A stretch of 64,000 nucleotides of DNA from Acidobacteriota bacterium (lineage in GTDB: Bacteria > Acidobacteriota > Vicinamibacteria > Vicinamibacterales > CAVVIG01), in NCBI GenBank assembly GCA_025463215.1, contig JAOBWF010000085.1, forward strand, positions 1-64,000. Reading direction: 5' to 3'. The notes beneath the pieces are model-generated. The model worked only from the letters and a program-made list of their open reading frames with translations, was not told the DNA's origin and searched no databases. Below, piece by piece: positions 11,123 to 45,843 of the stretch. Positions within the stretch are counted from its first letter, which is position 1. Each line of letters starts with the position of its first letter. Both the position numbers and the translations under genes were made by a program.

Positions 11123-11143
11123 GGCCAATGATCCGGTTTGGCC
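11123..11143. promoter_or_regulatory. Inverted repeat GGCCAA-N9-TTGGCC in the divergent intergenic region
   Basis: GGCCAATGATCCGGTTTGGCC between the kinase start (11090) and the giant gene start (11241). Confidence 0.3.
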
Positions 11144-11240
11144 GTGGTTGGCGCGTTGAGATCAGGAGAAACGCTATCCGTGTCGGTCGCGGAGTCACCT
11201 TACCACGGTGGGGTCCCGGGCAGGCGCAGCCATCACACAT

Positions 11241-14200
11241 ATGCACGGCCGACCGCACCGACGGTACAGACCGTTCGGCCTCCTGGGCATTGTTGCTACC
11301 TTATTCCTGCTCGCCGGCCCGATGCCGCGCGCGGGCACCGTCACGCTCTTCGGCCCCCGCACTCTTACCCGCACGACCGGCGCTCCGAATGTCTTCACGT
11401 TCAATTTCGTAACCGGCGCCGCCGCCGCGCCATACGTTCTCCATATCGACAACCACGGCGTGACCAGCGGCGTCGTGACATTGAATGGCGTCCAGATCCT
11501 CGGTCCCAACGACTTCAAGGCGTCGGGCCGCGACGACTGGATGAAGGATCGCGACTGGGACGACGACGACTGGTACCGCGACGGGAGCTCGGGCCAGGAT
11601 CGCGGCGACAAGGACCGCAAGGCCGGCGACAGCAAGGATCGCCGGGACGGCGCCGACAACGATCGCAAGGACCGGGACGACGAGTGGCGCGGCGATCACG
11701 ACTGGAAGGCGGTAATCGAGCGCACCGTGTCACTTCGCCCGACCGGCGGCAACGTCCTGCGGATTGAACTGCGCAGCAAACCCGGGACCCATCTGTCGGT
11801 CCGGATCGACGGCACCGCGGCGGTCACCGATACGACGCCGCCGGTGATCACGGCGGTCGTGAGCCCCGCGCCGAACAGCGCCGCCTGGAACCGGACCGAC
11901 GTGCAGGTCAGCTTCGTCTGCAGCGACACCGGCTCCGGGATTGCGACCTGCCCGGCGGTGCAGACCCTGTCGACCGCCGGCGCGAATCAGATCGTGCGCG
12001 GGACCGCGACGGACAAGGCCGGCAACACGGCCGTCGCGACCGCGACGGTGTCGATCGACACGACGCCGCCGACGATCACGGCGGCGGTGTCCCCCGCGCC
12101 CAACGCGAGCGGCTGGATCGGCTCCGACGCCACCATCACGTTCACATGTCAGGACGCACTGTCGGGGATCGCCTCCTGTCCGCCGCCGATCGCGGTCACG
12201 GTCGACGGCGCCCAGACGTTTACCGGAACTGCGCGCGACCGCGCCGGCAACGACGCCACGGCCGCGATCACGGTCACCATCGTCAAGACCGGGCCATCGA
12301 TCGTCGCGGCTGCGGCGCCGCCGCCGAACGCGAACGGCTGGAACCGTACGCCGGTGATCGTGACGTTCATCTGCAGCAGCGCGGCGGGAACCGAGGCCTT
12401 GGCCTGCCCTGCGCCGGTATCGGTGACCGCGGAGGGCGCGAATCAGGTGATCACGCGGTCGGTGGTCGACGCCGCCGGCCGGAAGGCCGACGCGAGCGTC
12501 ACGCTCAATATCGACACGACCGCACCGGCAATCACCGCCGCCGTGTCGCCGCCGCCGAACGCCGGCGGCTTCGTCGACTCCGATGCGACGGTGACGTTCA
12601 CGTGCACGGACGCAGGATCCGGAATCGCCGCGTGTCCCGAGCCGATCACCATCACCACCGAGGGGCCGCAGACGCTGACTCGCGCGGCTATCGATCGCGC
12701 GGGCAACGAGGCCACCGCGACGGTCACGCTGCAGGTCGTCAAAACGCGGCCGTCGATCACGGCAACGACGGCTCCGGCGGCGAACGCGAATGGGTGGAAT
12801 CGGACGGCCGTCGTCGTCTCGTTCGCCTGCAGCGGGTCGCTCGCCTGTCCGTCGCCGGTCACCGTCACGACGGAAGGCGCCAATCAGGTGATTACGCGGT
12901 CGGTGGTCGACGCGGCCGGCCACACCGCTGCCGCGACGGCGACGCTGAACATCGACACGACCGCGCCGGCACTCACCGCCGCCGTGTCGCCGCCGCCGAA
13001 CGCCGGCGGCTTCGTCGATTCCGATGCGACGGTCACCTTCACGTGCACGGACGCAGGATCCGGAATCGCCGCGTGTCCCGAGCCGATCACGATCACCACC
13101 GAGGGTCCGCAGACGCTAACGCGCGCGGCGGTCGATCGCGCGGGCAACGAGGCGACGACGACGGTCACGCTGCAGGTGGTCAAGACGCGGCCGTCGATCA
13201 CCGCCACCATCACTCCGGCGGCGAACGCGAACGGGTGGAACCAGACGGCCGTCGTCGTCTCGTTCGTCTGCAGCGGCTCGCTCGCGTGCCCGTCGCCGGT
13301 GACGGTGACGACCGAAGGCGCGGATCAGGCGATCACCCGGTCGGTGGTCGACACCGCCGGCCACACCGCCGCCGCGACGGTGACGCTGAACATCGATACC
13401 ACGCGTCCGACGATCGCCGCCGCGGTTTCTCCGACGCCGCGTCCCGATGGAACGGTCGACGGCGGCGCGACGGTGACGTTCACGTGCAGCGATGCGCTGT
13501 CGGGAATCGCGTCCTGTCCGCCGCCGGTAACGATTGCCGCGGCAGGACCGTCGACGGTCGCGCGCACCGCCGTGGATCGCGCCGGCAACGAGGCGACGGC
13601 GACCGTCTCGGTGACGGTGAACACCGCCTCGGCGGCGCCGACGATCTCGGCGACGGTGACGCCGCCGGCCAATGCGGATGGCTGGCATCGCGGTGACGTG
13701 GTCGTCACCTTCGTCTGCGCCGGCGGATCGGGGGCGCTCTCGTGTCCCGCCCCGGTCACGGTGACGACGGAAGGTGCCAACCAGGTGATCGCGCGTTCGG
13801 TGACCGACGCGGCCGGCCACAGTGCGAGCGCCGCCGTCACGCTGAACATCGACAGGTCGGCGCCTGTGGTCACCGCCACCGCATCGCCGGCCGCCAACGC
13901 GGCAGGGTGGCATCGTGGCAACGTCGTGGTCAGCTTCGCGTGCCGCGACGCGCTGTCCGGGGTGGCGTCCTGTCCGGCGCCGATCACCGATTCGTCGGAA
14001 ACCGGCGGCCAGATTACCGGAACCGTGACCGATCGCGCCGGCAACACTGCGACGGCCGCGCTGCTGGTCAAGATCGACAGGGCACCGCCGACGATCGTCA
14101 TCACGACGCCAGCCGACGGTGCGAGCGTCGAGACCTCGTCCACCGTTGTGAGCGGCACGATCGTCGATTCGCTCTCCGGCATCGCCTCGGCCGCCTGCGG

Positions 14201-17200
14201 CGACGCGAGCGCCACGGTGACCGCGGGCGGCGCGTTTACGTGTCCGGCGGTGCTGATTGATGGACAGAATGCGCTGGCGGTGTCGGCGATCGATGCCGCC
14301 GGCAACGTCGCGACGTCGCAGCTCAGCGTCACCCTCACCGTGAATCATCCGCCCGTTGCCGACGCGGGGGCCGGATACAGCGGCGCCGTCGGCGCACCGC
14401 TGTCGTTCAGCGGCGCCGGTTCGGCCGACCCTGACCACGACTCCTTGTCCTACGCATGGAGCTTCGGCGACGGCGCCACGGGGTCCGGTGTCACCGTGAC
14501 GCACACCTACAGCCGCGTGGGCGCGTACGACGTGACGCTGACCGTCACCGACGCGAAAGGGCTGTCGCGCACGGCCACGACAAGCGCATCGATCGTGCAG
14601 CCGAACCGTGCGCCGGTGGCGACCGCGAACGGGCCGTATACGGGCATCACCGGGACGCCGTTGACCTTCAGCGGCTCGGCAATCGATCCGGACAACGATC
14701 CGCTGACGTATGTCTGGAGCTTCGCCGACGGCGGCACCGCATTCGGCAGCACCGTGTCGCATACGTATACGGCCGCGGGCGCATCGACGGCGACCCTGAC
14801 CGCGAGCGACGGTCAGTTGAGCGGCACGGCGACCGCATCCGTGCAGGTGTCGCTGGCCAATCGTCCGCCGACTGTTACTGCGGGCGGTCCGTACACCGGC
14901 GTCAGCGGCGCGGCGGTCGCCTTCGCCGCGACCGGGTCGGATCCTGATGGCGACGCATTGACCTACCGATGGGATTTCGGCGACGGCACGAGCGCCGCGG
15001 GCAGGACGGCCACGCACACGTTCGCGCAGCCTGGCACATTCGAAACTGTTGCGACAGTGAACGACGGCCGCGGCGGTTCGACGTCGGTCGCGGCGGCCGT
15101 GACGATTGCGCAGGCGAACCGCGCGCCGCACGCCGCGGCCGGCGGGCCGTACGCCGGCCAGGCGCGATCGCGACTGTTGTTCACGGCGGCATCCTCGTCC
15201 GATGCCGACGGCGACACCCTGACTTACGCCTGGACATTCGGCGACGGCTCGACCGGCACCGGCGTCGCGCCGAACCACGGCTACGCGGCCGCCGGCGTCT
15301 ACACCGCATCCGTGACGGTGGCCGACGGCCGCGGCGGACACGATTCGGCGTCAACGGAAGTCACGGTCGTCGCCCCGCCGGCTGTGGAGAACGGGCCGCC
15401 GATCGCGCGCCCCGGCGGGCCGTACTCGTCGGCAGCAGCGGTCGTCGTTGCGCTGAACGGCAGCGCCTCGTCCGATCCCGACGGCGACCCGCTCAGCTAT
15501 GTCTGGACGTTCGGAGACGGCAGTTCGGGGACGGGGCCGTCGCCCGCGCATGTGTACGCGAACGCAGGCACGTTCACGATTGCGCTGGCCGTCAGCGACG
15601 GCCACTCACACACCGTGGTCGCCGAGACATCGGCCACCGTGTCGGCGGCGACCGATCGCGCGCCGCCGAGCGTGTCGCTCAGTGCGCCCGCGCGGGTTCT
15701 GCCGGGCACCGAGGTGCTCGTCACCGCGACGGCGACGGACAATGTCGGCGTCGAGTCGGTCACCATCGAGGTCGACGGCGGATCGCCGGGCGCGATTACG
15801 ACGCCGCCGTATCAGCGCCTCGTCGTCATTCCGGCGGTTGCCGCCCCGGGCGCGACGATCCGGGTGCGTGCGACCGCGGTCGACGCCGGCGGCAACCGCG
15901 GCACCGCCGACGCGACGATCACGATCGATGCCGCACCCGATGGCGAGAAGCCGGTCGTCACGTTGAACGCGCCGGCGGAGGCGACACCGGGGTCGCAGAT
16001 TCATCTCACCGCGACCGCGGCGGACAACGTCGGCATCGCGTCGGTCGACTTCAGCGCCGACGGCGCGCCGATCGCGACGGTCCCCGCCGCGCCGTACGAA
16101 TCGACCTACAGCGTGCCGGCGACCGCGACGCCGGGCGCGCAGTTGACGTTCACCGCGCGCGCATCCGATTTCACCGGCAACGATGCGACGGCGACGGCCA
16201 CCGTCGCCGTCGTGCAGACGGCGGACACGACACCGCCGGTCGTGACCGTCTCCGCGCCGGCAGTGGTGGCCCCGGGCGCCGGCTTGAACATCACCGCCGA
16301 CGCGTTCGACAGCGGCGGCATCGCGAGCGTCGAGTTCTACGTTGACGGCGTCCGCATCGCCACGGTGGCGCAGCCGCCTTACCGCGCCGCGTTCGCGGTG
16401 CCGCCGACCGCAGTCCCCGGCTCGATTCTGCGCGTCGAGGCGCGCGTGTCGGACTTTGCCAACCTCGAGGGCCGCGCCGCGGCTCAGACGATCGTTGGCG
16501 CGGCGGCCGGTGCGCTGGTCATCGGCGAGGTGTTCGACGACAGCACCGGCCTGTTGCTCGCGGGCGCCGCCATCACGCTGAGCGGCGCCGATTCGAGCGG
16601 CGTCGCCTACACGGAGAGCGCGACAACCGATGCGCGTGGCAGGTTCATGCTTCGCGCCGCCGGCGGACACGGTATCGTCAGCGTCACCCGGAACGGCATG
16701 ACGCAGGTCGATCGCGCCGTCGATCTGCAGAACGGCGCGGTGGTCGAACTGCTCGACAGCCGGCTGACCCCGCTGGCGACGCCAATGACGCTGTCCGGCG
16801 TGCTGGGCGGCGCCGCGACGAGCGGCGCGGCGAGCATCAGCGTTCCCGCCGGCGCAGCGCCGGGCGCCGTCACGCTCACCTTGACGCCGGTGTCGGCGCA
16901 GGGGCTTCAGGGCCCATTGCCGCTCGGCTGGGCGCCATTGGCGGCACTCGACATCGCCCCGCACGCGATGGCTCTTCACGGCGCGATCGTCTCCGTGCCG
17001 AACGCGCGGCACGCGGCGGCCGGCACGCCGTTCGTACTCGCGCAGTGGGACGCGGCGGCGGCCGTCTGGCGCGCCGTCGGCGACGCTTCGGTCTCTGCCG
17101 ACGAGCGGACCGTTCAAGGCACGATCGAGCTCACCGGAGCGTTGGCAATCCTCGTCGCCGACACGCTGCCCTCGGCGCCGATCCATCCGAACAGCGGTGA

Positions 17201-20200
17201 CCTGCTCGCTGGTGTCGCCGCCGCGTCGATCGCCGCCGATGCGCTGTCGCTGGTGACGCCGACGCCGAAGGTCATCTTCTACAGCCCCGGGGTGAAGTCG
17301 GATGTGGTGGCCGCTTCGACTGCGGCGGCGCCGCTGCCGAGCGGCACCGTCGTGTGGTCACGGATTACCGAGTCCTACCGGTTCGTCGCCGGCGGCGAAA
17401 CCCATCCGGAGCCGTACACCGCCGACCTCGTCTTCTACCAGCGCCCGCTCGATGCCACGAGCCAGAGCGCCAGCTACGTGGTCTCGCCGTCGCTCGTGTT
17501 CGATCCGCTGACGCTTGCGGACGGTGTGATCAAGGTGGAGCTGTTCGCGAGGCCGGACGTCGCCACACCGATCGCGGCCATCGGGCCCGACGGCGGTCTG
17601 CTCACCGCGGCAACGGGTGAGTCGATCCAGGTTCCGTCCGGCGCCGCCGCGGGTGCGGTGCCGGTACAGATCGCCGGCCTCGAGGTCGACGAACTGGGCA
17701 TGCCGGTTCCCGATGGCCTCGAATGGCTCGGGGGCATGCGGCTGACGTTCACTGGCGCGCTCGCACAGCCGGCGATCGTGTCGGTGCCGGTGCCGCCGCT
17801 GCTCGGCGACGCGACCGGGATTCTCCTCGTCCGTCTTCAGGAACTGCAGGAACGCACCCGTCTCGTGCTCGTCGGCGGGGCGCACATTGTCGGCAACCGC
17901 ATCGTCTCGACCGTCAGCCTCGAGGGCGCGAGCCAGCAGTTCGAAGGCGTCCGCACCGCTGGACGCTACGCGTTCGTGCACACGACGGCGCTGGTCGGTT
18001 TCGCTGCCGGACTGGTGACCGGGGTCGACGACCTGCCGTTTGTCGGTGCACTTGTCACGACGCCGACGCTGCCGATCGTTTCACAATCGCGCGGCGCCGC
18101 GGGTTACATCGCCGCCGCCGCGGTAGGGTCTGCCGTCTTGACCGCGACCGATCTGGCGCGGGCTGACGCCTCGACCGGCGCGCTGACCTTGGCCAGGCAG
18201 GACGAGGTGCGCGCCCTGGATCTGCATCTCGTCGCGCAACCCCCGCGTGTGACATCGATCCTGCCGTCGAACGCATCGACGAACGTGTCGCCGACGACCG
18301 CCGTGGTGATCACGTTCTCCGAGGCGATCGATCCCGAATCGGTCTCGGGTGCGCGCGCTGCCAACATCGTGCTCGCCGGCGCCGACGGCGCGGTGGTGCC
18401 GGCGACGCTGGCGCTCTCGTCGGGCAACTCGGTCGCGACGCTGCGGCCGATCGCGACGCTGGAAGCGAACACCGCGTACACCGCCAGCGTGACGGCGGGC
18501 GTCAAGGACCTCTCCGGCTACGCGCTCGCTCCGCCGGCCTCCGCCGCCTTCACCACGCTCGACACGGTTCCGCCGCTGCCGCCGGCGGCCGGAGCGGTCA
18601 CCGCCGACATCCCGGTGAACGGCGCCACCACCGTGCGCGCATCGCAGGGCACCGCCGGTGCGCACGATCACGTCACCCTCGTCAACCTGACGACCGGCCA
18701 GATCTCGCCGGTCATTGTCCTCGGCAACGGCGCCTTCACCACGACCATTGCCGCTTCCGCCAAGGACAAGCTGCGCCTCCGCATCGTCGACGATGCCGGA
18801 AACGAGACCGCGGTCGATCTCGCGCGTTTTTCGCGGATCAACGCCGACGGCAGCGTGTCGGCAGCGGTGGGCACGGAGGGCGGTCACGTGAGTGGGCCCG
18901 GCGGCACGGCCGTCGACATCTCGCCGGGAACGTTCCCGGACGGCGCGATCGTGACGATCAATCCGGTGACCGAAGCCGAGTTCCCGGTGCAGCTCACCGC
19001 CGCGCAGAAAGCGTTTCTGAGTTACGCCGGCGGCGTCCGCGTCGATTTCGGCGGCGTCACGCCAGCCAAGTACGTCAACGTCTCGATTCCGGCCGGCCCC
19101 GACGATCATCCGGGCGAGCAGTGGGTGGTCAGCGCCGCGACCGAAGTCAACGGCCGCATGGTCCTCAACGTCGTCGACACGGCCAAGCTGATTGCCGGGC
19201 GGATCCAGACGTCGTCACCGCCGTGCCCGGGCGTCACCGGCAGCGCGGTCTACGGCATCCACAAGTCGAAGCGTGCCTTCGGCCTCAACTACGGGCAGAT
19301 GTACGCGAGCGGCTGGGGCGGGCTGCAGGTCGACACGCAGGTCACCGACGAGTCGATCTTCTTCATCGACCTGCCGTTCCTGTCGTACACGCCGTCGCTG
19401 CCGACGCCGATGTGCCTGCCGACCCTGTCGGGCAACGTCAGCGTCGGCGCCAATCGTCAGCGCGTGACGATTCCGGCGGCCGCACTGGCGCCCGCCGACC
19501 GTGAAGTCGTGATCACGAGCGAGGACGGCAACGGTCTGCCGACCGCTTCGCACTTTCCGAAGAACAGCGTCTACTACACGTTCGAAGTGCCGGGGAAGGA
19601 CACCGACTCCGTCTCGGTGTTCGTCACCGATTCGACGACGCCGCTCGGCAGCCCGACACCGGTGCCCAATGTCCGCGTCAGCCGCGCCACCGCGACCTCG
19701 GTGCTGGTCGCGTTCAGCCCGGACGTGCTGAAGAGCCCCGGCGTCACGCAGGTCACCATCCACAACGCCAGGACCGGCATCGACACCGCATTCCTGCAGG
19801 CGCAGGTCAATTACGTCGTGTCGGTGCCCGGCCCAGCCGGCTCGGTGTCGGCGGTGCGCGTCATCGACGTCGACGGCGCCGTCCGCCAAATTGCCAACTT
19901 CACCGTCTCGTCGCCGAGCGGACCCGAACGGCTGATGGTCAAAGCGGTCGCCGGCACCATCGATCCGACGTGGGCCCAGCTCGACGATCTGCCGCCGGCG
20001 GACGTTCCGTTCGGCGCCCGCGGCGTGGTCGACGTCGTGATCACCGTTGCGAGGCCGGGCCTCGGCCAGCACGATATCCATGTGCCGGCCGACGCGCGGG
20101 TCGACGGCGGCTTCAACATCGGCGTCGACGCGCTGCTGACGGACACCTTCTCGGTCAAGCAGGTCTACGCCAATCACGACGGGACCAACACCAGCGTCGA

Positions 20201-26498: not shown

Positions 26499-27325
26499 CG
26501 CGGACGATCGCCGCGCTGATCGTCTGCTGCTGGGCGTCCGCGGCCGCGGCCGGCCAGGCGCGTGGCGCCGACGCGGTGGCGCGCGTCGGCGATCGGACGG
26601 TGACCGTCGATGAGCTGCGGGATGTGATCATCGACCAGCGCCGCACCGGCGAGATGCCGAAGGTGGTCGAAGCGTTGACCCCGGAAGGGCAGCGCCGGAT
26701 CCTCCAGCAGATGATTGACACCCATCTGCTCGCTTTCGGCGCGCGCGACGCCCGGCTGGATCGCGACCCCGCCGTCCAGCGCGCGATCGCACGCGCGGTC
26801 GACCTCGTGCTCGCCGATCAACTCGCGCGCCGCGAAGCGGCGGCGCTCGATGACCGCGCGCTGCGCGATTATTACGACAGCCACGAAGCGCAGTTCCGCA
26901 TCGGCGAGCGCGTGCACGTCCGGCACATCGTTGTCGCCAGCGAAGCGGAGGCACGGCAGGCGCGCGACCTGCTCGACGCCGGCGGCGACTTCGCCGCCCT
27001 GGCCGCCGAGCGCAATGTCGACGCGTCGCGACGCGCGAGCGGCGATCTGGGCTGGGTCAAGCGCGGCGTGATGGTCAGGGCGTTCGAAGACGCGGCGTTC
27101 GCGCTCACCGCCGGCGAGACCAGCGCCATCGTCAAGACGTCGTTCGGCTTTCACCTGCTGCGCGCCGAAGCGATCGATCCCGGCACGCTGCCGCCGCTGG
27201 ATGCGGTTCGCGAACAGGTGCGGGAACGCGCTCTCGCCGAACGGATGGCGGCGCTGAAGCGTTTGCTCGCCGCGACGCACACCGTCACCGTGGACGAAAC
27301 GGCGCTGAAGGGGGCAGGACGGTAG
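26495..27325 (+). CDS. Parvulin/SurA-type peptidylprolyl isomerase, exported
   Basis: ATGA overlap with giant gene 1 stop. Signal-like MTRTIAALIVCCWASAAAAGQ; VRHIVVASEAEARQARDLLDAGGDFAALAAE..SGDLGWVKRGVMVRAFEDAAFALTAGETS..VKTSFGFHLLR. Confidence 0.93.
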   Translation: MTRTIAALIVCCWASAAAAGQARGADAVARVGDRTVTVDELRDVIIDQRRTGEMPKVVEALTPEGQRRILQQMIDTHLLAFGARDARLDRDPAVQRAIARAVDLVLADQLARREAAALDDRALRDYYDSHEAQFRIGERVHVRHIVVASEAEARQARDLLDAGGDFAALAAERNVDASRRASGDLGWVKRGVMVRAFEDAAFALTAGETSAIVKTSFGFHLLRAEAIDPGTLPPLDAVREQVRERALAERMAALKRLLAATHTVTVDETALKGAGR

Positions 27326-27330
27326 TCGCC

Positions 27331-36300: not shown

Positions 36301-39300
36301 TTCGTCCAACTCGGACAGTACGTGCTCGACGCGACCGGCCACAACGGCGAGCGTGCGCGCGCGACGATCCAGCTCGAGGTCAGCGCCCAGCAGGCGACCG
36401 TGCCACTCAGCTTCCTCGGCCACGGCGTCGTCGTCGGCACGGTGATCGGCGGCCTCGGCCAGCCGGTCAACGCCGCCGCCGTCGAGTTCCACGCGTGGAG
36501 CGTCGTCGGCTCAGCCCCCGACGTGCTGGTGACGACCGACGGCACCGGGACGTTCCGGATCGAGGGCGTGCTGGTCGGGCAGTTCTGGCTGACCGCACGC
36601 GACGCGACCACCGGCCAGGCCGGCAGCATTTCAGGCGTCATGAACCGCGCCGGCGACACGGTCACCGCGAATGTGCATCTCGCGGCGTACGCGACGCTCG
36701 CCGGCACCGTCTATCGCGCCGATCGGACGACGACGGTCGCCGGCGCCACGGTGACCACGTCCACGTATCGCCGAACGACAACCGACGAGGCCGGGCGGTA
36801 TCAGTTCGATCTGCTGCCGCTCGGCGCGGTCAGCCTGCGGGTCGACGATGGCAGCGCGCGCGGCGTCGGCGTAGCGTCGACGACGATGACGACAGCCGGC
36901 GGCACACAGGCGCTCGACGTCGTGCTGTTCGCGCAGGGGTCGGTGGTCGTCACGGTGCTCGATGCCAGCGGCGTCATCGTGCCGAATGCGAACGTCTATC
37001 TGACCGTCTCGAACGGCGTCGTGACCGACGGCCTGTATGTCCGTGCCGGCGTCAACGGCGTCGCCGTCATCGACCACGTGCTGGCCGGCACGTTCGACAT
37101 CAGGGCGGACAACGGCGTCCTCAAGGGTTCCACCCTCAACCGGCATGTCGCGGCAGGCGAGGTCCAGCAGGTCACGGTCCGGTTGCAGCCGACCGGCGGC
37201 ATCGCCGGTATCGTCGCCGAGTCCGACGGCCTGACGCCCGCGAGCGGCGGCCATGTCGACATCCGATTCAGCGATTTCAACGTGCTGAGCACGCCGATCG
37301 CCGACGACGGCACCTATCACTTCGATCTGATGCCGCTCGACGCGTACGGCTACGAGCTCAACGTCTACGACGCCGCCGGCCGCTTCCGCGCCTTCGCGAA
37401 GGCTGTCCCCGTGACGCACAACGGCGTGGTCGTGACCAAGAACTTCACGTTCGTCGGGCTCGGCCAGGTGCGCGGGCAGGTGAAGTACGCGGCGACCGGC
37501 GGCACCGCGGCCGATTTCAGTGTCACTGTCCAGACGCGCAATCCGGACTTCACGGCGGCGCACTCCGCGGTCACCAATGCCGCGGGCTTCTACGAGATCA
37601 ACGACGTGCCGGTCGGGCCGTTCACCGCGAGCACCGGCAACCTCGCCCAGCAGTTGTGGGGCGAAGGCGACGGCGCGCTGGCGCACGGCGGCGACGTCGC
37701 CGAAATCAACATCCTGCTGCAGAACAACGCCATCGCCCTGCCGGCGACGCGCAGCGATGCGAACAACTTCTCTGTCGATGTCCAGCCGGACGGCACGCTC
37801 GGTTCGTCGATCGTGTTCAACGAAGCGCTGGCGCTCGACATCGTCGTCTCCGGCGCGCCGCATCGCTTCACCGGCGGTGAAGTGCCGACGGCCGAACAGA
37901 GCGGCCGGGAGATCGTCACACGGCAGAACGGCCTGGCAGGCCTCAACGTGACGCGGAAACTGTTCGTGCCGCTCACCGGCTATTTCGCGCGGGCGCTCGA
38001 CTTCTTCAGCAATCCGACCGCGGATCCGATCACGGTCGACGTCCAGCTGACGACGGAGCTGGCAAACGGGATGATCGTCCGCTCGACATCGAGCGGCGAC
38101 GTGGCGGTCAGTGTCGCAGATGCGGCGAATCCGGATCGGTGGGTCGCATTCGACGATTCACTCGACGGCGATCCCGCGCTCGTCGGCGGCCGTCCCGCCG
38201 CCGCGTTCGTATTCGACGGCGCCGGCGCCCGGACACGCGCCGCCACCGTGTCGGTTGCCGGCACGCCGTCGCGGCTGCAGCTCGGGTGGACCCAGATCGT
38301 GGTGCCGCCTGGCGGCGCCGTCGCCCTGCTGCATTTCGCCGTCCAGCAGACGTCGCGCTTCGCCACCGCGGCGTCGACCGATCGCCTGGTCCGGCTGGCG
38401 CCGGAAGCGCTCGAAGGCATGACGCCGGACGAGATCGCGGCCATCGTGAACTTCGCCGTACCGGCGGACGGCCACAGCATCGTCGCCGCCCTGCCCGCGC
38501 TCACCGGTTCGGTGAGCGGGCACGTGTTCGAGGCGGACGGGTCGACGCCGGCGCCGTTCACTCGGCTGACGTTCAAGAGCGGCGTTCCAGTGTTCGGCCG
38601 GACGCAACACGTGGGAGCCGACGCCATCGGCGCGTTCAGCTTCACGTCGGCGGCGGACGATGGCGCGTCGCATCCGATTCCCCTCGACACCTTCACGCTG
38701 GCCGCCCAGCACCCGCTGACGGGCGTGGCGAGTCCATCGATCGCGGGCGGCTTCGGCGTGGATGATGCCACGGCGCAACTGGACGTCGTCTTCAACAACA
38801 CCGCGATGGTCAGCGGAACCGTGCGCCGCCACAACGGAGTCGCGGTCACCACCGGCTTCGTGCGTGTCAGCCTCGTATTGAACGGACCGGTGATCGCATC
38901 CGCCGCGATCGGCAGCGACGCGCGGTATCGCGTCGCCGGCCTGCTGCCCGGCACCTACGTGCTGTCCGCGTCAATCGCGCAGCAGGGCTCCGCGCTCCTC
39001 GGCATCGGTTCGGTGACCGTCACCGCGGGCGCGGTTGCGACCGCCGATGTGACGATTGAGGCGACCGGCAGCATCGCCGGCACGCTCTCGACGGCGAACG
39101 GTACGCCGGTTCCCGGCGTCGTCGTCAATCTCGGCAACAGTGTCGGCAGCGTTTCGCGGGAAGCGCGCACCGATACCGGCGGCGTGTTCACGTTCAGTGA
39201 CGTGCCGGCCGGCGTGGTGTCGTTGAGCGTGACCGACCCGACAACCGGGCTCAGAATGTCGGCGCCGGCGACGGTCGTCGTGGACGCGGCGACGCCGGTC

Positions 39301-42300
39301 GCGCTCAAGTTCCCCGCCGTCGGCCGGCTCGAGGTGCAGGTGAACTTCCAGCGCGGCGTCGGCGCCGCAAGCGTGGCACTGCAGCTGCAGGAAGCGGTCC
39401 GCGGACCGGACTTCCGCGGCATTGGCGCCACCGATGCCGCCGGGCACAAGACAATGACCGGGCTGAGCGCCGGCACGTTCGTCGTGCGCGCCGCGCATCC
39501 GAATAACACGCGCATCGTCGTCACCGCTTCCGGCACGCTCACCGACGACGGCAGCGCAGTGCCGGTGGCAATCACGCTGCCCGCGGCAGGTACCGTGAGC
39601 GGCCTCGTGACCGATGCGCACGGCGCCGTCGCCGGCATCGCGGTGACGATCCGCAGCACGAACGCCGCCTTCGGCGGCTTCCAGACGGCAACGACCGATG
39701 CCGCCGGCGCTTATGTCATTGCCGGCGTCCCTGACGGCGGCTTCACGGCGACGGTCCAGGAGTTCGGTCGGCAACTGTTCGGCGAGGCGTCCGGCCGCGT
39801 GGACGCCGACGGCCAGAACGTTACCGTCAGCATTTCGCTGACCAACAACGCCGTGTCGCTGCCCGCCGACCGACACGACGCCAACGGGCTGCTCTACCAC
39901 ATTGAGCCGGATGGTCGCATCAGCCAGGCGACCAACGGCACGTTCGGTTACTACTGGATGACCGGCGCCGGCGCCTCGCGCCTCGAGATCGTGTCGAACG
40001 GGGTTGCGACCGCGTTTACCGGATCGAACGTCGGGACGGTCGAGCAGGACGGCCGCGAAATCGTGGTGCGCCAGGCGGGCATCGCGGGGTTGTCGGTCAC
40101 CCGCAAGGTGTTCGTGCCGCGGGCGGGCTACTTCGCGCGGTATGTCGAGCTGCTCACCAATCCGGGCACGACGCCGGTCACGGTCGACCTTCGCGTCAAC
40201 AACACGGTGATCGGTCTCTCCTCGGCGAGTCAGTCGATCAGCGGGACGTCGAGCGGTGACGCCACGCTGGACCTGACAGACGCCGCCAACCCCGATCGCT
40301 GGGTGACGTTCGACGATGTCGACCACGTCGATGCGTTCCGCTACGGGCGGCCGATGCCGACGGCGTTCGTGTTCGACGGGATGGGCGCGGCGCGCCGTGT
40401 CTCGTCGGCGACCACGACCGCAACCGTGGAACAATCGCTCGCCTATGTGTGGCGCGGCATCACCGTCCCGGCCGGACAAACGGTCGGGGTGATGCACTAC
40501 ATCGTGGAGCAGCCGACCGCTGCCGGCGCGACCGCGGCGGCGACGCGGCTGTCACTGGCGCCGCCCGAAGCGCTCGACGGCCTGTCGCCCGAAGAGCTCG
40601 CCGCGATTCAGAATTTCGCGCTGCCCGCCGATGGCGCGAGCACGCTCGACCCGTTGCCGTCGTTGACCGGCAGCGTTGCTGGCCGCGTGCTCGGCAGCGA
40701 CAAGGCCACGCCCATCCCGTACGCGCGCATGACGTTCACGAGTCAGCATCCGTTGTTCGGCCGCACGTGGCCGCTGCAGGCCGGTGAGGACGCGGCGTTT
40801 TCGATCAAGGGGCGCCTCGACGACAACGAACCGATGGCGGTGCCGGTCGCGCCGTTCACGCTGCACGCGTCCCACCCGCAGACCTACGTGGAGATCGACC
40901 AGCCGGGCGATTTCTCCGGCACGGTGACCGGCAATCTGGCCTTCGCGCTCGGTGAGGCTACCGCGAGCTCGTCGACGTACAGCGCCTACTACCCGCCGCA
41001 GAACGCGATCGACGACGATACCAACTCGTTCTGGTACACCGAAACGATCGAAGACGCGCACTGGTTCGACGTGAGCTTCCCCACGGACGTGACGGTGTCG
41101 AGCGTCACGATGCTGACGGACAACCTGCTGTCGGCGGACATCGACCTGCTCGACGCCGCCGGCGGCATCGTCGCGACCGTCGCCAGCGTCGACACGTCGA
41201 CGGGGACGACGACCGTCTCGATTGACGGCGAGGGTGTTCGCCGAGTGAGGGTGACCGATCCGTCGCACCGCAGCGGGATCAGGATCAGAGACCTCCGCAT
41301 CTTCGGCTCCGCGCCGGCATCGGCGGGCGCGGCGCGGCAGGACGTCGTCTTCAGTAACACGGGGACGCTGGTGGTGACGATTCACAAGTCCAGCGGCGCA
41401 CTGGCGGCCTACGGCGACGTCCAGGTCAACGGCGGCCCACCGCTCTACGTCGGCGTCAACGGATCGGTGACTGGCGGCGAAGGCCGCATGACCGGCCTGC
41501 CGACCGGTTCCTACTCGGTGGCGGCACAGGTCACCGCCAACGCCGCGTATTCCCTGAGGGGTTCCGCGACCGCCAGCGTCACCGCCGGGGCAACGTCGAC
41601 CGTGGACGTTACCCTCGAGCCGACCGGCACGGTCCGCGGGCGGGTGACGCGTGCGAACGGCGCGCCGTCGGCCGGGTCCTTCGTGCGCCTCGAACGCAGT
41701 TACCCGTTCTTTGCCGTTCAGAAACAGACCGACACCGACGGGCGCTACGTGTTCGAGGACGTCCCACTCAACTACTACACGCTGACCGCGTACGAGCCTG
41801 CGACCAATTACCGGACCTACGGGTATGCGTACCTGACGACGCCGAACCAGGTCTTCACGCAGGACTTCACGCTCATCGGTCTCGGCACCATCCGTCTGCA
41901 CGTGCAGTACGCGAATGGCGCGCCGGCTGCCGGTTCCTCGGTGCTCGTCAGTCCGGCGTGGAGCGAGTTCCTGGTGACCGCCGACATGAACGGCGATGCG
42001 ACCGCCGTGAATGTGGTCGAGGGAGCGTTCCGCGTGCGGGCGCGGCACCCGCTCAACGACAAGCTCGCGACCGAGATCAGCGGCGTCATCGCAGGCGATG
42101 GCGATTCGCAGCAATTCACGATCGTGTTGCCGCCGGCCGGCGCGATCACCGGCACCGTAACGCGGCCCGACGGCACGCCGGTTCAGTATCCCGACGTGAC
42201 CGTTGACGTTGCCGGAGTCCCGTGGGGGCCGGATTCGATCGACTTCAACGGCCAGTTCGGCTTCAACGCCTTGCCCGCGGGACAGCCGCTGACGGTTCGC

Positions 42301-44745
42301 GCCTACTGGCCGTATCCGTACCCCCGTCGCCTGTTCTATGGCGAGACGCCGTTCACGGCGACCGATGGCGCCTCTGAGGTCGTCGACGTGCGGCTGCCAG
42401 GGTTCGCGACGATCACCGTTCATGTGACGCGAGGCGACGGCGTGACCCCATGGGCGGGCGCCGCGATCTTCTCGTCGGACAAGTTCCGGCCGTTCTTCCA
42501 GGTGCGCGGCAGAACCGATGCGAACGGCAATTTGACGCTGCAGCGTTCGCTGTCCGACGCGACGCCGGAGCAGTTCGCCGAAGGGGACGTCACGATCCGG
42601 GTCTACGACGCGAACACCGGCGTGGCGCTGTTCGACCAGCCCGCCACCGTCCGCTACGCCGACATCAACGGCAACGTCGACGTCGCGATGGGCGCCACCA
42701 TCATCGGCGGCAATATCACCGGTCACGTGTATGCGCGTGACGGCACGACGCCGATTCCCGATGCGTACGTGGAACTGGTGAACGCCGTTGATGCCCAGCG
42801 CATCACCTCCGTCTACGCCGGCCCGGATGGAGCGTTCGAATTCCCGAATGTCCTGCCCGGCCAGCAGGGGGTCGTGGTCCGCGCGACTGCGCCGATCGGG
42901 TGGGCGGTCGTCGAGGAGGCGCGCACCTTCACGACCGCGGGCGAGACGCTGACCGTCGATCTGCTGCTGCCGGTCACGCCGGCCACCGTCTCGGGGCATG
43001 TGTTTGCCGGAGATGGACTGACGCCGCTCACGACGGTGGAGGTGCTGCTCATCGATTCGCAGGGCAACGGGCTGCAGTACGCGTATCCGGACGCGATCGG
43101 CGCGTACAGCTTCGGCCTGTGGTATTTCGACGCCCCGGGCTTTTCGGTACGCGGCACGGAATACTCGGTCTCGGGCATTTCCGCGACCGTGTCAGGCACG
43201 ATCCCCTCGTCCAACGCGCAGGTGACCGTCGATCTCATCATCCCGATTTCGATCGTCTCCGGCCGCGTGCGGTTCGCCGATGGCACGAATGTGCGCCGCG
43301 CCAGCATGTTCGTCACCGACAGCACGGGCGTGACGCGCAATTTCCGATCGAACACCGATGGCACGTATAACATCCTGAATCTCGCGCCGGGCGAGGTGGT
43401 CGTGACGGCGCAGGACAACAACTCCGGGTTGAACGCGACCGCCACCGGGACACTGCAGTCGGTCGCCGCGGCGCTGGCGCTCGACGTGCGGCTGCCGGCG
43501 TCGGGCACCGTCACCGGCTTCGTCACCGACGCGAGCGGTGCCCCGGTGCGCGGCGCCAGCGTCATTCTGGTGAGCCCGAACCTGGAATTCCAGCGATTCG
43601 CCAGCTCCTCGTCCAACGGCAGCTTCACGTTCACGCGCGTCCCGGTGGGCAGCGTCTACGTCCAGACGGCCTTCTACGACGGCACCGACTACCGCTACGT
43701 CGCCGCCACGGGCGAGGTGATCGCCGATGCGACGCTGACGCTCGGGCTCGCGTGGCATGGCGGCGGCACGGTTGCCGGTGTCGCCACCGCCGCGGACGGC
43801 GGTCCGGCGGGCGAGGTGCTCGTCGCGATCCGCGCCTTCGCCGGCATGGGCCCGAACGGGCTGTCCACCGCGTACGTCTTCAGCGACAGCTATTCGTTCG
43901 CCGACATTCCACCCGGCCGCGTGCAAGTCGCCGTCTACGCGATGCACGACGGAGCCATCACCGGCTCGATAGGCCTCGTCGATGGCGAGGTCACCGCGGG
44001 CAGCACGCTTACGCTGAATGTGGCGCTCGGCAATGCCGTCGACTCGACGGCGATTCTCGACGGCGACGACGGTTTCCGGTACGACGTGTCGTCCAACGGC
44101 ATCCTGTCGTCGGGTGGCACCGCCGATGGACGGTTGCGCGACGCCTTTTCCGGAGCCGACTACCTGCAGGTCAACGGGCTGGACTTCCCGACGGTCGACG
44201 CCGCGCGTCCCTCCGGCAGCGGGCGCGCGTTGACCTATGGGCCCGTCCCGATGCCAACCGTGCTGGCGACGCGCTCGGTGTACGTGCCGCAAACCGGCGG
44301 CTTCGCCCGCTATCTCGAGACGTTGACGAATCCGACGACGGCGCCGCAGACGATCACCGTCGGCATAACCGGGGACACCGGCGGGTTGCCGAGAGTTCTC
44401 GTCGCCGCGTCAACCACCGGGAACACCTTCACCGTGACAGACTTCCCCGACTGCGATTGCACCACGTCGACCCTCGGAAGGGTGTTCCAGGGCGCCGGCA
44501 CGCCGCCGCTGCCGGTCGCGACGTCGAAGATGACCGGCTCGCATTTTGTGTATACCTACCAGCTGACGCTCGCGCCCGGCGCAGCCGCGACCATCATGCA
44601 CTTCGAGGTGCAGCGCGATACCAGCGGCGCGGCGGCCGCCGAAGCGCAGGCGCGGGCGCTGGTCGATTTGTCCGATCCTCACGCGCTCGACGGCATGACC
44701 GACGCCGAGCGCGCGCAGGTGGTGAACTTCGTGATTCCGAGGTGA
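27331..44745 (+). CDS. Giant secreted multidomain protein 2 (~5804 aa): many carboxypeptidase-regulatory-like modules, SbsA/Ig-like domains, one F5/8C-like domain, three copies of an unassigned ~250-aa domain
   Basis: Signal-like MRPLARLRSFHSAIVLVAAFAVAVSTPAAAAGQ; dozens of G.V...DG.P..GA.V......T.DA.G.Y....V..G modules; uninterrupted ORF. Confidence 0.92.
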   Translation: MRPLARLRSFHSAIVLVAAFAVAVSTPAAAAGQGPARFLAKEDILLYGLGLKVEPAQQTVPKDIATIVGTFLQAPQLPDNLPAFAADAEVVATLRGPSLPQPIELHVKPNSPFHIPPLGVAGTHTLDNIRLVSNGVVLLRGIPESTRIDVIDKLLVTQVTARALSAQEIREKGIVFDKANFQAYNFAAAFAIEDHPININFTVVLPSVLGAEDVGVSKATLATVASVPSIASLKTIIPDTLKLQTQIPNLTVVGFALTVPELSGQSFSVPPIPGVIVIPGDIGFLNQYFSVMLMVSNAAPGGSHLVVTGLRATIVLPPGRDGVVGTPDDPLAMARVGTGESPRIQPVVQLGADGIRGTSDDVDQLAPQESGNAEYLVEGRREGSHVVEMQITGTLEGLPIGPVTVTGRAAGSVLVRHPKFTLTFTHPEVVNAGEPYSLDVTVTNTSEAPANFVSVSLHGQHISGATLIGDATKEIESIPPGDSATIAFDLISKLTGRVTAATLDADENIGGRFELKTSVGELGVPLSPDSLVLPPEANGLPKPLRTAAIGLLGKAYAVATAPAAALPPDIRRFSRQIVIDGAVQVAEAGLRVTLHEPIPDSALQLEMDFAGSDYARLPAFNPKAEDLAFAQNDRIGFDELRRKSVRGDAFAGAVAAVLADSVGALGVSGFHRQMAEKIAYRPGHVSVIAGGAGPMPFTLTLRDGAGRLLGGTDPAGKVLKQIPFSDLMTFSTGGAATAALALVTTPDPGDYLITLDPIAGAAPAAITLSVVVPGADGVTLRHIVFENVGVGSTPAASFAAGDPIRFTVQVGGADAPSTALAASSDAPIVEPPPAIVSVVQQPFADALKCDAGEKSGVPVGRIVAVLFSKEVTPDSAQDKARAEDITNYTLATNRVVGAALQPGRRIVYLALRDPVGPYVPEDLTIAGLSDVHGHAMPAQTLPIETTVDAGGVVSGRVLKADGTPVPNANVRLFYLLTCDIPHWVGISSKWADADGRYSWNLVGNVLPDRIVAVDEETGEFRDVRFSLQRSGQRLTVDIVLLGRGTLQGRTLSETGAPLRDSAVRVTSLTDQSQYAATTDADGRFSIARIPVGNILIEAVNVAAKARTFVSQAIPTAGSTTFAEFVLLTVETTQVTLKTGTITGTTLAADGVTPITGVPVIAWYQSNSQPQILCPPGQGECAVAVVNSDRLTGAYRLDGVTAGTIRLQTFDQASLQQGEARVILPLDGTAAANILLSGGVGTVRGSVLDALGQPVAGARVGGGLSLATSDAAGRFTLADVPVGHREIVAVSDALGVQGTVGIDVLLAGETIGATIVLPSTASVAGTVFEADRTTAVAGVAVYLFARAGSSINVVGTAVTDAGGHYRLDNIPVGDYQASAFRADFSDGNIRAVPLKFFRQVARGDIVFRGGGGRITGAALDADGHTPLKAAVSISGDQLVIAGGRVGVEFKYVQNYKVTQTDFTTGRYQFGGIWVGKATISAAGQFSPDPVSLDATIPAANALVTLDIRLRATSRLTGTVYLPDGATPAGQNLIVTFRSDEVRVVCSEGSSGEPQCTSIPQGIQQENVVTDEHGEFVVPVVNAGVYTVSVEDPVSGQIGIAHGSVRAAEEGHVTVRLLGRGIVTVVVRGSDGVTPIPAAKVVLEQTDYPKTAMTVITDAAGATVFSGGDSLTEGSFTVIATDLRNGFAGRASGKVTRDGEQVTVTVYLYDAWGTVTGHVFRPDGVTTVPFSDVVVSNAAGALALGITDATGSFLADFIPIGPVFIETFEAATARVGSASGRVQFARQTVPVDVVESALGVVKGILLQSGSLTPLKGWEVSLSQVLPSGRSLPTLRTTTSIDGSFSFPGASEGLLSLRAAREGISGTASAQVRLTREGQVVEVPLLVTLATPLTGSVIGKVYNADGTPGADTLVQVCQGFDCGPANGVTVTAAADGTFAVDNLSLGRFLVRARSQVTSNSGTAIGEIRFDGETAGVTVALKGLSTISGTVLNGDGSVAAGARLELTGVPSSDCIGPCVQFALPDGSFRFTGVSASSFSLVATGAVSESRGIAGDRLLPGETKAVVVRLEPFGQLAGRVLLPGGAPAANIVAELVFGLRHFFAQSGADGRFAFAATPLGAYALTLQDPIGEGIVSRTGTISGATVLADAVLDTAPPAVIGVSPAPAAVGVARAATVQITFSEPIDPGTATQANITVSDGVRAIDGTLQTGNGDTTVTFRPLALLKDETRFTVRVADIRDRVGKTLTAAYVTAFTTVDITPPRPLALDPAPSTTGVAVDAAIRVKYSEAIDPARFRVPPIAIAGSGGAVAGRIDYLFGNTTVVFTPNRPLADGASYQVLRAAATDAAGNVEAAPAAYAFTTTDRTPPAIAALAAPPSVIENGQAMVVATVGTASDIAVVDFYINGVFALAARTAPFTLTFQAIPTYGKPGDVIRITALATDTSGNRSTAPAAATIAVTADAPPAVAVTVVTPTNALSAHNNDFVTVTVHAKDDLGVVQVGYKALTGNPLDAGTRTAAAALDRTASFSFHVPADAAPGSTVRVQASASDTKGQIGEAVPVDILVLDAIAPTVTITGATTGTMVNPGQQTTIAVLVRDSGGVASITLNVTGVAQFTQTRSVDPPQTAAITSFTITIPSTAKTGDSISIVATAVDRAGNIGTSGNVVMPVADRTPPTVHLHTDNFLTEVGAGTPLVIVADADDDLAVAVIDLTVSGAFTLAQSRTPAQAVANAHEEFRFDVPASVPDGATITLVARATDHAGNVSPPATLTLTVRSAQTVVLPGSVLLKAGESAIVSVDIPGGARSPVRVDFTTDNADVATVTPSVQFAAGEISKTFVVTGQAGGTVQIGASLRGVPSATMTVVVRGGIITGFVVDDRLRPVGGADVIVSGGATVATVSAANGSYTVEGINGPDVTVRATDPATHLYGFTTGTMSRYQGFADISVVMTTAASISGTVFESDAQTPAGGGVRVDIYESTDMSAPRSTVFTDAAGAYTFPFVQLGQYVLDATGHNGERARATIQLEVSAQQATVPLSFLGHGVVVGTVIGGLGQPVNAAAVEFHAWSVVGSAPDVLVTTDGTGTFRIEGVLVGQFWLTARDATTGQAGSISGVMNRAGDTVTANVHLAAYATLAGTVYRADRTTTVAGATVTTSTYRRTTTDEAGRYQFDLLPLGAVSLRVDDGSARGVGVASTTMTTAGGTQALDVVLFAQGSVVVTVLDASGVIVPNANVYLTVSNGVVTDGLYVRAGVNGVAVIDHVLAGTFDIRADNGVLKGSTLNRHVAAGEVQQVTVRLQPTGGIAGIVAESDGLTPASGGHVDIRFSDFNVLSTPIADDGTYHFDLMPLDAYGYELNVYDAAGRFRAFAKAVPVTHNGVVVTKNFTFVGLGQVRGQVKYAATGGTAADFSVTVQTRNPDFTAAHSAVTNAAGFYEINDVPVGPFTASTGNLAQQLWGEGDGALAHGGDVAEINILLQNNAIALPATRSDANNFSVDVQPDGTLGSSIVFNEALALDIVVSGAPHRFTGGEVPTAEQSGREIVTRQNGLAGLNVTRKLFVPLTGYFARALDFFSNPTADPITVDVQLTTELANGMIVRSTSSGDVAVSVADAANPDRWVAFDDSLDGDPALVGGRPAAAFVFDGAGARTRAATVSVAGTPSRLQLGWTQIVVPPGGAVALLHFAVQQTSRFATAASTDRLVRLAPEALEGMTPDEIAAIVNFAVPADGHSIVAALPALTGSVSGHVFEADGSTPAPFTRLTFKSGVPVFGRTQHVGADAIGAFSFTSAADDGASHPIPLDTFTLAAQHPLTGVASPSIAGGFGVDDATAQLDVVFNNTAMVSGTVRRHNGVAVTTGFVRVSLVLNGPVIASAAIGSDARYRVAGLLPGTYVLSASIAQQGSALLGIGSVTVTAGAVATADVTIEATGSIAGTLSTANGTPVPGVVVNLGNSVGSVSREARTDTGGVFTFSDVPAGVVSLSVTDPTTGLRMSAPATVVVDAATPVALKFPAVGRLEVQVNFQRGVGAASVALQLQEAVRGPDFRGIGATDAAGHKTMTGLSAGTFVVRAAHPNNTRIVVTASGTLTDDGSAVPVAITLPAAGTVSGLVTDAHGAVAGIAVTIRSTNAAFGGFQTATTDAAGAYVIAGVPDGGFTATVQEFGRQLFGEASGRVDADGQNVTVSISLTNNAVSLPADRHDANGLLYHIEPDGRISQATNGTFGYYWMTGAGASRLEIVSNGVATAFTGSNVGTVEQDGREIVVRQAGIAGLSVTRKVFVPRAGYFARYVELLTNPGTTPVTVDLRVNNTVIGLSSASQSISGTSSGDATLDLTDAANPDRWVTFDDVDHVDAFRYGRPMPTAFVFDGMGAARRVSSATTTATVEQSLAYVWRGITVPAGQTVGVMHYIVEQPTAAGATAAATRLSLAPPEALDGLSPEELAAIQNFALPADGASTLDPLPSLTGSVAGRVLGSDKATPIPYARMTFTSQHPLFGRTWPLQAGEDAAFSIKGRLDDNEPMAVPVAPFTLHASHPQTYVEIDQPGDFSGTVTGNLAFALGEATASSSTYSAYYPPQNAIDDDTNSFWYTETIEDAHWFDVSFPTDVTVSSVTMLTDNLLSADIDLLDAAGGIVATVASVDTSTGTTTVSIDGEGVRRVRVTDPSHRSGIRIRDLRIFGSAPASAGAARQDVVFSNTGTLVVTIHKSSGALAAYGDVQVNGGPPLYVGVNGSVTGGEGRMTGLPTGSYSVAAQVTANAAYSLRGSATASVTAGATSTVDVTLEPTGTVRGRVTRANGAPSAGSFVRLERSYPFFAVQKQTDTDGRYVFEDVPLNYYTLTAYEPATNYRTYGYAYLTTPNQVFTQDFTLIGLGTIRLHVQYANGAPAAGSSVLVSPAWSEFLVTADMNGDATAVNVVEGAFRVRARHPLNDKLATEISGVIAGDGDSQQFTIVLPPAGAITGTVTRPDGTPVQYPDVTVDVAGVPWGPDSIDFNGQFGFNALPAGQPLTVRAYWPYPYPRRLFYGETPFTATDGASEVVDVRLPGFATITVHVTRGDGVTPWAGAAIFSSDKFRPFFQVRGRTDANGNLTLQRSLSDATPEQFAEGDVTIRVYDANTGVALFDQPATVRYADINGNVDVAMGATIIGGNITGHVYARDGTTPIPDAYVELVNAVDAQRITSVYAGPDGAFEFPNVLPGQQGVVVRATAPIGWAVVEEARTFTTAGETLTVDLLLPVTPATVSGHVFAGDGLTPLTTVEVLLIDSQGNGLQYAYPDAIGAYSFGLWYFDAPGFSVRGTEYSVSGISATVSGTIPSSNAQVTVDLIIPISIVSGRVRFADGTNVRRASMFVTDSTGVTRNFRSNTDGTYNILNLAPGEVVVTAQDNNSGLNATATGTLQSVAAALALDVRLPASGTVTGFVTDASGAPVRGASVILVSPNLEFQRFASSSSNGSFTFTRVPVGSVYVQTAFYDGTDYRYVAATGEVIADATLTLGLAWHGGGTVAGVATAADGGPAGEVLVAIRAFAGMGPNGLSTAYVFSDSYSFADIPPGRVQVAVYAMHDGAITGSIGLVDGEVTAGSTLTLNVALGNAVDSTAILDGDDGFRYDVSSNGILSSGGTADGRLRDAFSGADYLQVNGLDFPTVDAARPSGSGRALTYGPVPMPTVLATRSVYVPQTGGFARYLETLTNPTTAPQTITVGITGDTGGLPRVLVAASTTGNTFTVTDFPDCDCTTSTLGRVFQGAGTPPLPVATSKMTGSHFVYTYQLTLAPGAAATIMHFEVQRDTSGAAAAEAQARALVDLSDPHALDGMTDAERAQVVNFVIPR
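37723..38472 (+). other. Unassigned ~250-aa repeated domain, copy 1
   Basis: NNAIALPATRSDANNFSVDVQPDG...EQSGREIVTRQNGLAGLNVTRKLFVPLTGYFARALDFFSNPT...ALEGMTPDEIAAIVNFAVPADG. Confidence 0.75.
39843..40636 (+). other. Unassigned ~250-aa repeated domain, copy 2
   Basis: NNAVSLPADRHDANGLLYHIEPDG...EQDGREIVVRQAGIAGLSVTRKVFVPRAGYFARYVELLTNPG...ALDGLSPEELAAIQNFALPADG. Confidence 0.75.
40940..41320 (+). other. F5/8 type C (discoidin)-like domain in giant protein 2
   Basis: GEATASSSTYSAYYPPQNAIDDDTNSFWYTETIEDAHWFDVSFPTDVTVSSVTMLTDN...RVRVTDPSHRSGIRIRDLRIFG. Confidence 0.6.
44025..44742 (+). other. Unassigned ~250-aa repeated domain, copy 3 (extreme C-terminus of giant protein 2)
   Basis: GNAVDSTAILDGDDGFRYDVSSNG...LATRSVYVPQTGGFARYLETLTNPT...ALDGMTDAERAQVVNFVIPR. 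Confidence 0.7.
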
Positions 44746-44749
44746 TGCG

Positions 44750-45256
44750 GTGATCAAGAGCGCGATACGTATCGCACAGGCCGCCGTGATGGCCACGCTG
44801 CTCGTCAGTTCATGTCAACCGGTCGCGGCCGTGGAAAGGGGACCGCTGCCGGCGTTCACCGTCACGACGCTGGACGGCACCCCGATCGACAGCACGCACA
44901 TGACCCCGGAGTCGCAGTACGTGTTGCTGTATGTCAGGCCCGACTGCCGGCCGTGCGATCGCCTGCTGGCGCTGCTCAGGAGCGTGAACGCACCGCACTT
45001 CACCAGCCGTGTCATCGTCATCGTCAACGGCGACCCGCGCGCCGCCGCCGCCTATGTCGGCCGCCACATCCCGGCATCCGCCGGACCTGTGACGTGGTAC
45101 GCGGACAGCGACAGCAACGGATTTCGCGCCTTGCGCCTCACGGGGATGCCCGAACTGATCGGCGTCAAGGACGGCGAGATGATGTGGTCGATTGCCGGCG
45201 TGCTGAATGACGCGGCGACGGTCGAATCGGTGGTGCGCACGTGGGTGGCGTACTGA
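44750..45256 (+). CDS. Thioredoxin/TlpA-like redox protein, probable lipoprotein
   Basis: GTG start 4 nt after giant gene 2 stop. ATLLVSSC lipobox-like; LPAFTVTTLDGTPI; LLYVRPDCRPCDRLLALL (CxxC). Confidence 0.8.
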   Translation: MIKSAIRIAQAAVMATLLVSSCQPVAAVERGPLPAFTVTTLDGTPIDSTHMTPESQYVLLYVRPDCRPCDRLLALLRSVNAPHFTSRVIVIVNGDPRAAAAYVGRHIPASAGPVTWYADSDSNGFRALRLTGMPELIGVKDGEMMWSIAGVLNDAATVESVVRTWVAY

Positions 45257-45843
45257 TGGGCGTCGACCGGTTGCGCGCCGGCGCGGGCAGCGCCGTACTG
45301 CTGGTCGTGCTCGGTGGTGCCGCTGTGGCGTCGGCGCAGGCGCCGAAGCGGCCGGTCAACGAGCGCGGCCCCGCCGACGCGCCGATCACCGTCGAGGAGT
45401 TCTGCACCTACGACTCGGAGCCGTGCAGCCGTCTGCACGTCGTGCTCGAGACCGTGCTCGCCGAGTTCGGCGACCGCGTACGGCTGGTGTTCCGGCACGT
45501 GCCGGTCGACGACACGCCCGCCGCATCGCTGCGCTATCGCGCCGCCCTGGCCGCCGGGGCGCAGGGACAATTCTGGCCGATGCACGACCTGCTGATGGCG
45601 AACCGCCAGCATGCGACAGCAGCCGAGATCCCGCTGATGGCGCATCAGCTCGGACTCGACCCGGATCGATTCCGCGCGGACATCGACAGCGCCGACGTCG
45701 CGGCGGCGGCCGCTGCCGATCGCGACGCCGCGCGCGAGCACGACGTGACGACCGCGCCGGCGGTGATCGTGAACGGGCGCCCGGCTGCCGCCGATGTCAG
45801 GGGGCTGCGCGCAGCCATCCGGGCCGCGGCGCCGGCGCGATAA
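45256..45843 (+). CDS. DsbA/DsbG-like thioredoxin-fold protein (Thioredoxin_4-like) with degenerate active site
   Basis: TGATG overlap with previous stop. GPADAPITVEEFCTYDSEPCSRL...RLVFRHVPV...GQFWPMHDLLMANRQ...LGLDPDRFRADID...TTAPAVIVNGRP. Confidence 0.85.
   Translation: MGVDRLRAGAGSAVLLVVLGGAAVASAQAPKRPVNERGPADAPITVEEFCTYDSEPCSRLHVVLETVLAEFGDRVRLVFRHVPVDDTPAASLRYRAALAAGAQGQFWPMHDLLMANRQHATAAEIPLMAHQLGLDPDRFRADIDSADVAAAAAADRDAAREHDVTTAPAVIVNGRPAAADVRGLRAAIRAAAPAR

Follow-up and report, generated by a model that had tools for sequence, protein, structure and literature searches.

We found that a soil-type Acidobacteriota genome carries, in one block, the genes of two giant exported proteins and of small folding helpers, and that this block is real and conserved, a largely undescribed operon of a giant pair and the helper genes dedicated to it. 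A search of the literature available to us retrieved no precedent for it. The block lies in a window of 64,000 nucleotides (the whole stretch of DNA analysed here), and the term operon stands for a predicted co-transcription, based on gene overlaps and conserved gene order. We have moderate confidence in a reading where the two giants would form an exported pair at the cell surface, assisted by dedicated periplasmic folding factors, and where one of them would bear an alternative to the head found in related loci. As the preliminary description had proposed, five tightly packed genes are present on the same strand:

11241 to 26498, plus strand: G1, a giant of 5085 aa with an ATG start, containing Ig, PKD, CarboxypepD_reg/ZU5-like, Big_5 and beta-propeller domains, a cysteine domain and a beta-rich tail.
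26495 to 27325, plus strand: PPI, an exported parvulin of the PEB4/SurA-like type, belonging to a cluster-specific subfamily.
27331 to 44745, plus strand: G2, a giant of 5804 aa with CarboxypepD_reg repeats.
44750 to 45256, plus strand: TLP, a TlpA-like thioredoxin-fold protein of a dedicated family, with CRPC at 44945-44956.
45256 to 45843, plus strand: DSB, a DsbA/Thioredoxin_4-like protein, with C-x6-C at 45403-45426 in place of CxxC.

The junctions are of -4 nt (ATGA) between G1 and PPI, +5 between PPI and G2, +4 between G2 and TLP, and -1 (TGATG) between TLP and DSB, the latter starting with an ATG and having a possible alternative GTG 15 nt upstream. Export signal peptides of the five proteins were assessed by eye. 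The five reading frames are real genes because long homologues align over most of their length in other genomes; for G1 and G2 these are of 3600-5850 aa with 30-63% identity, and the giants are therefore not chance reading frames. Pfam confirmed the parvulin and Thioredoxin_4/DsbA domains that had been proposed, while the domain assignment of the giants turned out to have been swapped in the synteny search suggested at the time, G1 being the Ig/PKD giant and G2 the one with many CarboxypepD_reg repeats. Antisense to G1 lies an open frame of 2426 aa (19215-26495, minus strand), which probably results from GC-rich codon use. Further along the window, 53829-58139 encodes an OMP_b-brl_4 outer-membrane barrel protein of 1436 aa that also has a CarboxypepD_reg domain.

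A search with the C-terminal half of G1 recovered homologues in eight of 149 relatives. The gene order G1-(PPI)-G2-TLP is found in the window, G049, G007 (two loci), G031, G000 C73, G069 and G052, and partially in G062, with further loci in G000 (C415), G031 (C1 and C36), G050, G051 and G062. Junctions of -4 nt also recur, at G1/PPI (window, G007 C8, G052), G1/G2 (G007 C4, G000 C73) and PPI/G2 (G007 C8). Among genomes of the same order the identity of the block is about 30-60%, with up to three copies per genome. The window's own genome holds two further giant-pair clusters (C73 and C415), which have diverged from that of the window as much as the clusters of other genomes. Distances of G1 and G2 covary (Mantel r up to 0.86), as expected from linkage alone. 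The closest loci, G049 and G007 C4 (63% in G1, 58% in G2), belong to different families, while loci inside one genome are far apart in sequence, which implies that the block has been transferred as a unit, being mobile and co-inherited. A viral origin of the block was tested and not found.

Along G1, we could delimit the following regions:

11919 to 14243, plus strand: array of Ig-like repeats, every repeat having two Cys spaced by about 10 residues.
14343 to 15647, plus strand: PKD domains (Pfam).
16518 to 19220, plus strand: stalk region with CarboxypepD_reg-like, ZU5-like (by eye) and Big_5 domains, common to RHS giants of other Acidobacteriota.
20688 to 21830, plus strand: beta-propeller (structure model and Foldseek).
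21828 to 22940, plus strand: cysteine domain with 8 invariant Cys and the motif NYQPGLSDHDFEVF, of no known family and present in this order only.

G1 has 39 Cys in total, one pair falling in each N-terminal Ig-like repeat, and the eight located at residues 3549-3850 are invariant in the alignment of all nine G1 homologues (9/9). The cysteine domain, conserved with its invariant polar motif, was found in five of 396 sampled Acidobacteriota genomes, all within the order of the source genome. AlphaFold2 modelled the propeller and the cysteine domain mostly at low confidence, Foldseek backed only a propeller, and a comparison of the G1 head with PDB profiles gave nothing credible. A scan for amphipathic strands revealed no clear outer-membrane barrel in G1, and a match bearing the name OmpL47 beta-barrel was not accepted as one, as it covers Ig-like repeats. 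Inside the Ig array lies a tandem repeat of 441 bp at the DNA level (window 12402-13607, 82% matches), suggestive of a recent expansion.

The regions of G2 that we distinguish are the following:

27421 to 29940, plus strand: N-terminal domain, a phylum-wide hallmark of no known family.
37732 to 38469, plus strand: FARY domain, copy 1, about 250 aa, of no known family.
39856 to 40626, plus strand: FARY domain, copy 2, from direct alignment of the FARY copies.
43993 to 44742, plus strand: FARY domain, copy 3, which makes up the C-terminus.

All three FARY copies were compared by direct alignment. Eight cysteines of G2 are conserved in 8/8 sequences and two more in 7/7 where aligned, making ten that are essentially invariant. 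Searches of the N-terminus and the FARY domain against PDB profiles gave nothing credible, and a transglutaminase identity of the N-terminus was dropped, its Foldseek matches having very low TM scores. The AlphaFold2 model of the N-terminus was mostly of low confidence. Of 396 Acidobacteriota genomes, 44 encode the N-terminal domain, and most of the ORFs containing it are 3000-6800 aa long. Outside this order, the gene next downstream of a G2-family giant is usually another giant, and Pfam identified RHS repeats in six of these wider-locus partners (G196, G462, G494, G368, G329 and G478, the last being the second giant downstream of the G2-family gene), accompanied by PT-HINT in two of the six checked loci and by Tox-GHH in one. 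The G1 stalk (residues 1760-2660) matches such RHS partner giants from outside this order, and Pfam and profile searches gave no match to RHS/YD repeats in either G1 or G2. Because the stalk matches RHS partner giants while the cysteine domain is confined to this order, the preferred reading of G1 would be an alternative head without RHS, borne on the common stalk and paired with the same G2 scaffold.

The giants might also be an adhesin or extracellular-matrix pair devoid of effector activity, similar to other Ig/PKD giants, with helpers that merely raise the yield; we regard this as possible, although we lean against it. Such a role would fit the predominance of Ig, PKD and CarboxypepD_reg domains in the giant pair, beside which one F5/8 type C domain occurs, as well as the PEP-CTERM proteins of about 240 aa whose genes immediately precede G1 in three loci (L037:470-1189, L029:4249-4962 and L068:15358-16080 on the minus strand). 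However, it leaves unexplained why the G2 family is associated with RHS giants and why the cysteine domain is strictly conserved. The preliminary description had likewise spoken of a cell-surface or extracellular matrix system; a matrix role would be one possibility, the RHS association of the wider family pointing equally to contact or competition.

A role in contact-dependent competition or effector delivery, where G2 would carry RHS-type polymorphic toxin-like giants and the G1 cysteine domain would be a non-RHS effector of this order, appears unlikely to us. It is consistent with the RHS giants and their PT-HINT and Tox-GHH domains beside G2-family genes, with the stalk that these giants have in common with G1, and with the conserved polar motif of the cysteine domain. 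However, G1 has no RHS match; its C-terminus is alignable over nine homologues, with no sign of a hypervariable toxin type, and the cysteine domain is internal. Moreover, a comparison of the flanks at a similarity threshold of E<=1e-12, which variable immunity genes could escape, gave no recurring immunity-like gene. The same flanks yielded no conserved secretion or anchoring gene, and no family outside the block recurs in more than three loci. Together with the lack of type 1 secretion genes among the annotated ORFs of the window, this agrees with the earlier remark that no genes of a known secretion apparatus are visible here.

Returning to the favoured reading, in which an exported pair is served by its own folding factors, PPI contains a rotamase domain (PF00639/PF13145) above the curated Pfam cutoff, and its best solved relative is among the PEB4/HP_0175/SurA/PrsA parvulins. 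Cluster PPIs score 205-468 bits with a profile to which no other parvulin of ten genomes scores above about 100 bits, two of the five cluster parvulins not having been used in its building. The outcome that the preliminary description had named as refuting, small genes lying elsewhere and unlinked, was looked for and not observed: TLP occurs only with G2-type giants, and all five cluster-type parvulins (5/5) adjoin G2, immediately upstream. PPI, present in roughly a third of the loci, is a cluster-specific subfamily tied to G2.

TLP has no Pfam family match, and its thioredoxin fold was recognized by a PDB profile search (E 7.7e-6 to 2m72); TlpA-like structure matches, the CRPC motif and a lipobox-like LVSSC bear out the CxxC TlpA-like lipoprotein first proposed. 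Strong TLP matches (E below 1e-30; 17 copies) occur in nine of 149 relatives, all of which are among the 11 with strong matches to the G2 N-terminal profile (p about 7e-13); the TLP profile was trained on cluster members and is hence tuned to them, several of the 17 copies lying outside the training set. Strong matches are present in eight of 396 genomes across the phylum, and in the two from outside this order (G455 and G374) TLP again follows a giant with G2-type sequence. TLP is, as far as these profiles can tell, a dedicated family restricted to G2 genomes. A tandem pair of TLP genes follows a G2 in L144 (G062 C81, 11435-12572). The CxxC is kept in six of ten aligned loci and lost in G007b, G052, G069 and G031c, and because of these losses redox chemistry by TLP cannot, judging from the alignment, be a universal function. 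In G007b, G052 and G069, the cysteines of G2 are more numerous, not fewer.

The DSBA/Thioredoxin_4 domain of DSB scores above the Pfam cutoff, so that its description as DsbA-like stands for the domain but not for a standard active site: both linked copies of this order have C-x6-C, with SExC at the site and hence Ser in place of the first CxxC cysteine. A DSB gene comes after TLP in the window, G031 C1 and two loci of G374, a member of another Acidobacteriota class whose counterpart is a tandem DsbA-like protein including a normal CxxC. It is missing from nearly all loci and is rarer than PPI. Many DsbA-family ORFs of the relatives have one in-frame TGA (e.g. G000:C98, G017:C29, G088:C1) and are possible selenoproteins, with a match in NCBIfam to a thioredoxin-like (seleno)lipoprotein family. 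Since TLP has often lost its CxxC and DSB has C-x6-C, redox catalysis is likely in the window but is not the common denominator of the family.

The earlier view of the small proteins as dedicated folding/redox factors is therefore borne out in part. The linkage of TLP and PPI and the recurrence of Giant-TLP-DSB argue for it, and folding and redox helpers are sensible because both giants carry conserved cysteine pairs, which plausibly form disulfides and would hence make the giants helper substrates, the pairing being our inference. Against it stand the absence of PPI from most clusters and of DSB from nearly all, the CxxC losses in four of ten TLP loci, the lack of conserved secretion or anchoring genes in the flanks, and the poor structure models. 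It is very improbable that these are ordinary housekeeping neighbours set beside the giants by chance, for although most loci lack PPI, most lack DSB and the wider DsbA family is common (103 of 149 relatives), TLP is confined to genomes with a G2 and the PPI subfamily to loci with one, and Giant-TLP-DSB recurs in another class.

In our proposed mechanism, G1 and G2 would be a giant exported pair from a mobile, co-inherited operon, acting together at or just outside the cell surface. Both would probably be translocated unfolded by Sec, PPI would serve in the periplasm as a proline isomerase and holdase, and TLP and DSB would act in periplasmic disulfide formation or proofreading, or in holding where the cysteines have been lost. 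G2 would be the conserved scaffold partner, and G1 a long disulfide-stapled Ig/PKD stalk whose head (beta-propeller plus cysteine domain) would replace the RHS head of related loci.

Possible regulators are encoded upstream of G1:

7923 to 8513, minus strand: ECF sigma factor (PF07638), a probable regulator.
8526 to 11240, minus strand: Ser/Thr kinase carrying TPRs, which adjoins G1 and is divergently oriented.

In five of eight loci, the 7 kb upstream of G1 contain an ECF sigma factor gene, against about 0.07 expected, in genomes that hold few strong copies; the 7-kb limit was set after seeing the data, and the probability is indicative only. The kinase-TPR joins the sigma factor in four loci (the window and three others), and a CHAT-TPR is next to G1 in two, the loci with a sigma factor and either of these genes being the window, G007 C8, G031 C9, G049 C5 and G069 C1. 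This suggests a private regulatory module of the block. More tentatively, the whole may represent a previously undescribed two-component surface machine, with an invariant G2 scaffold, giant heads that can be exchanged (of RHS type in most lineages, and in this order the disulfide-rich one of G1), its own foldase set (a parvulin, the degenerate-thioredoxin chaperone TLP and the Cys-x6-Cys DSB) and its own ECF sigma/kinase switch.

Among known systems, the Giant1-5 cluster of Apilactobacillus kunkeei also consists of consecutive giant genes, coding for extracellular proteins of 3000-8000 aa with beta-solenoid N-termini, but in a Gram-positive host, and the parts of its description available to us name no folding-factor genes (PMC12863079). 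SiiE of Salmonella, of about 600 kDa, is likewise a giant built of bacterial Ig domains, but it is secreted by the type 1 route through an apparatus of its own (PMC5466336), none being seen at the window. The RHS/YD-repeat polymorphic toxin-like giants (PF05593, PT-HINT, Tox-GHH) resemble G1 in standing beside a G2-family giant and in their Ig/CarboxypepD_reg/Big_5 stalk, whereas G1 lacks RHS repeats and a toxin-type C-terminus, is upstream rather than downstream of G2, and is accompanied by dedicated TLP and PPI. The parvulin foldases PEB4, HP_0175, SurA and PrsA share the domain of PPI and include its best solved relative, but the PPI subfamily is tied to G2 genes and would not be a general chaperone. 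Finally, TLP and DSB have the fold of, and distant sequence similarity to, TlpA/MauD-type and DsbA/BdbD proteins, from which they differ by the frequent lack of CxxC in TLP and by the C-x6-C of DSB.

To our knowledge, the folding and export of bacterial proteins above 500 kDa are poorly understood. Two such proteins with co-inherited candidate foldases would provide a client-chaperone set defined by genetics, and the loss of catalytic cysteines in some clades of a thioredoxin-fold helper, TLP, may separate chaperone from redox roles. The G2 N-terminus, for its part, names a phylum-wide family of giants tied to RHS giants.
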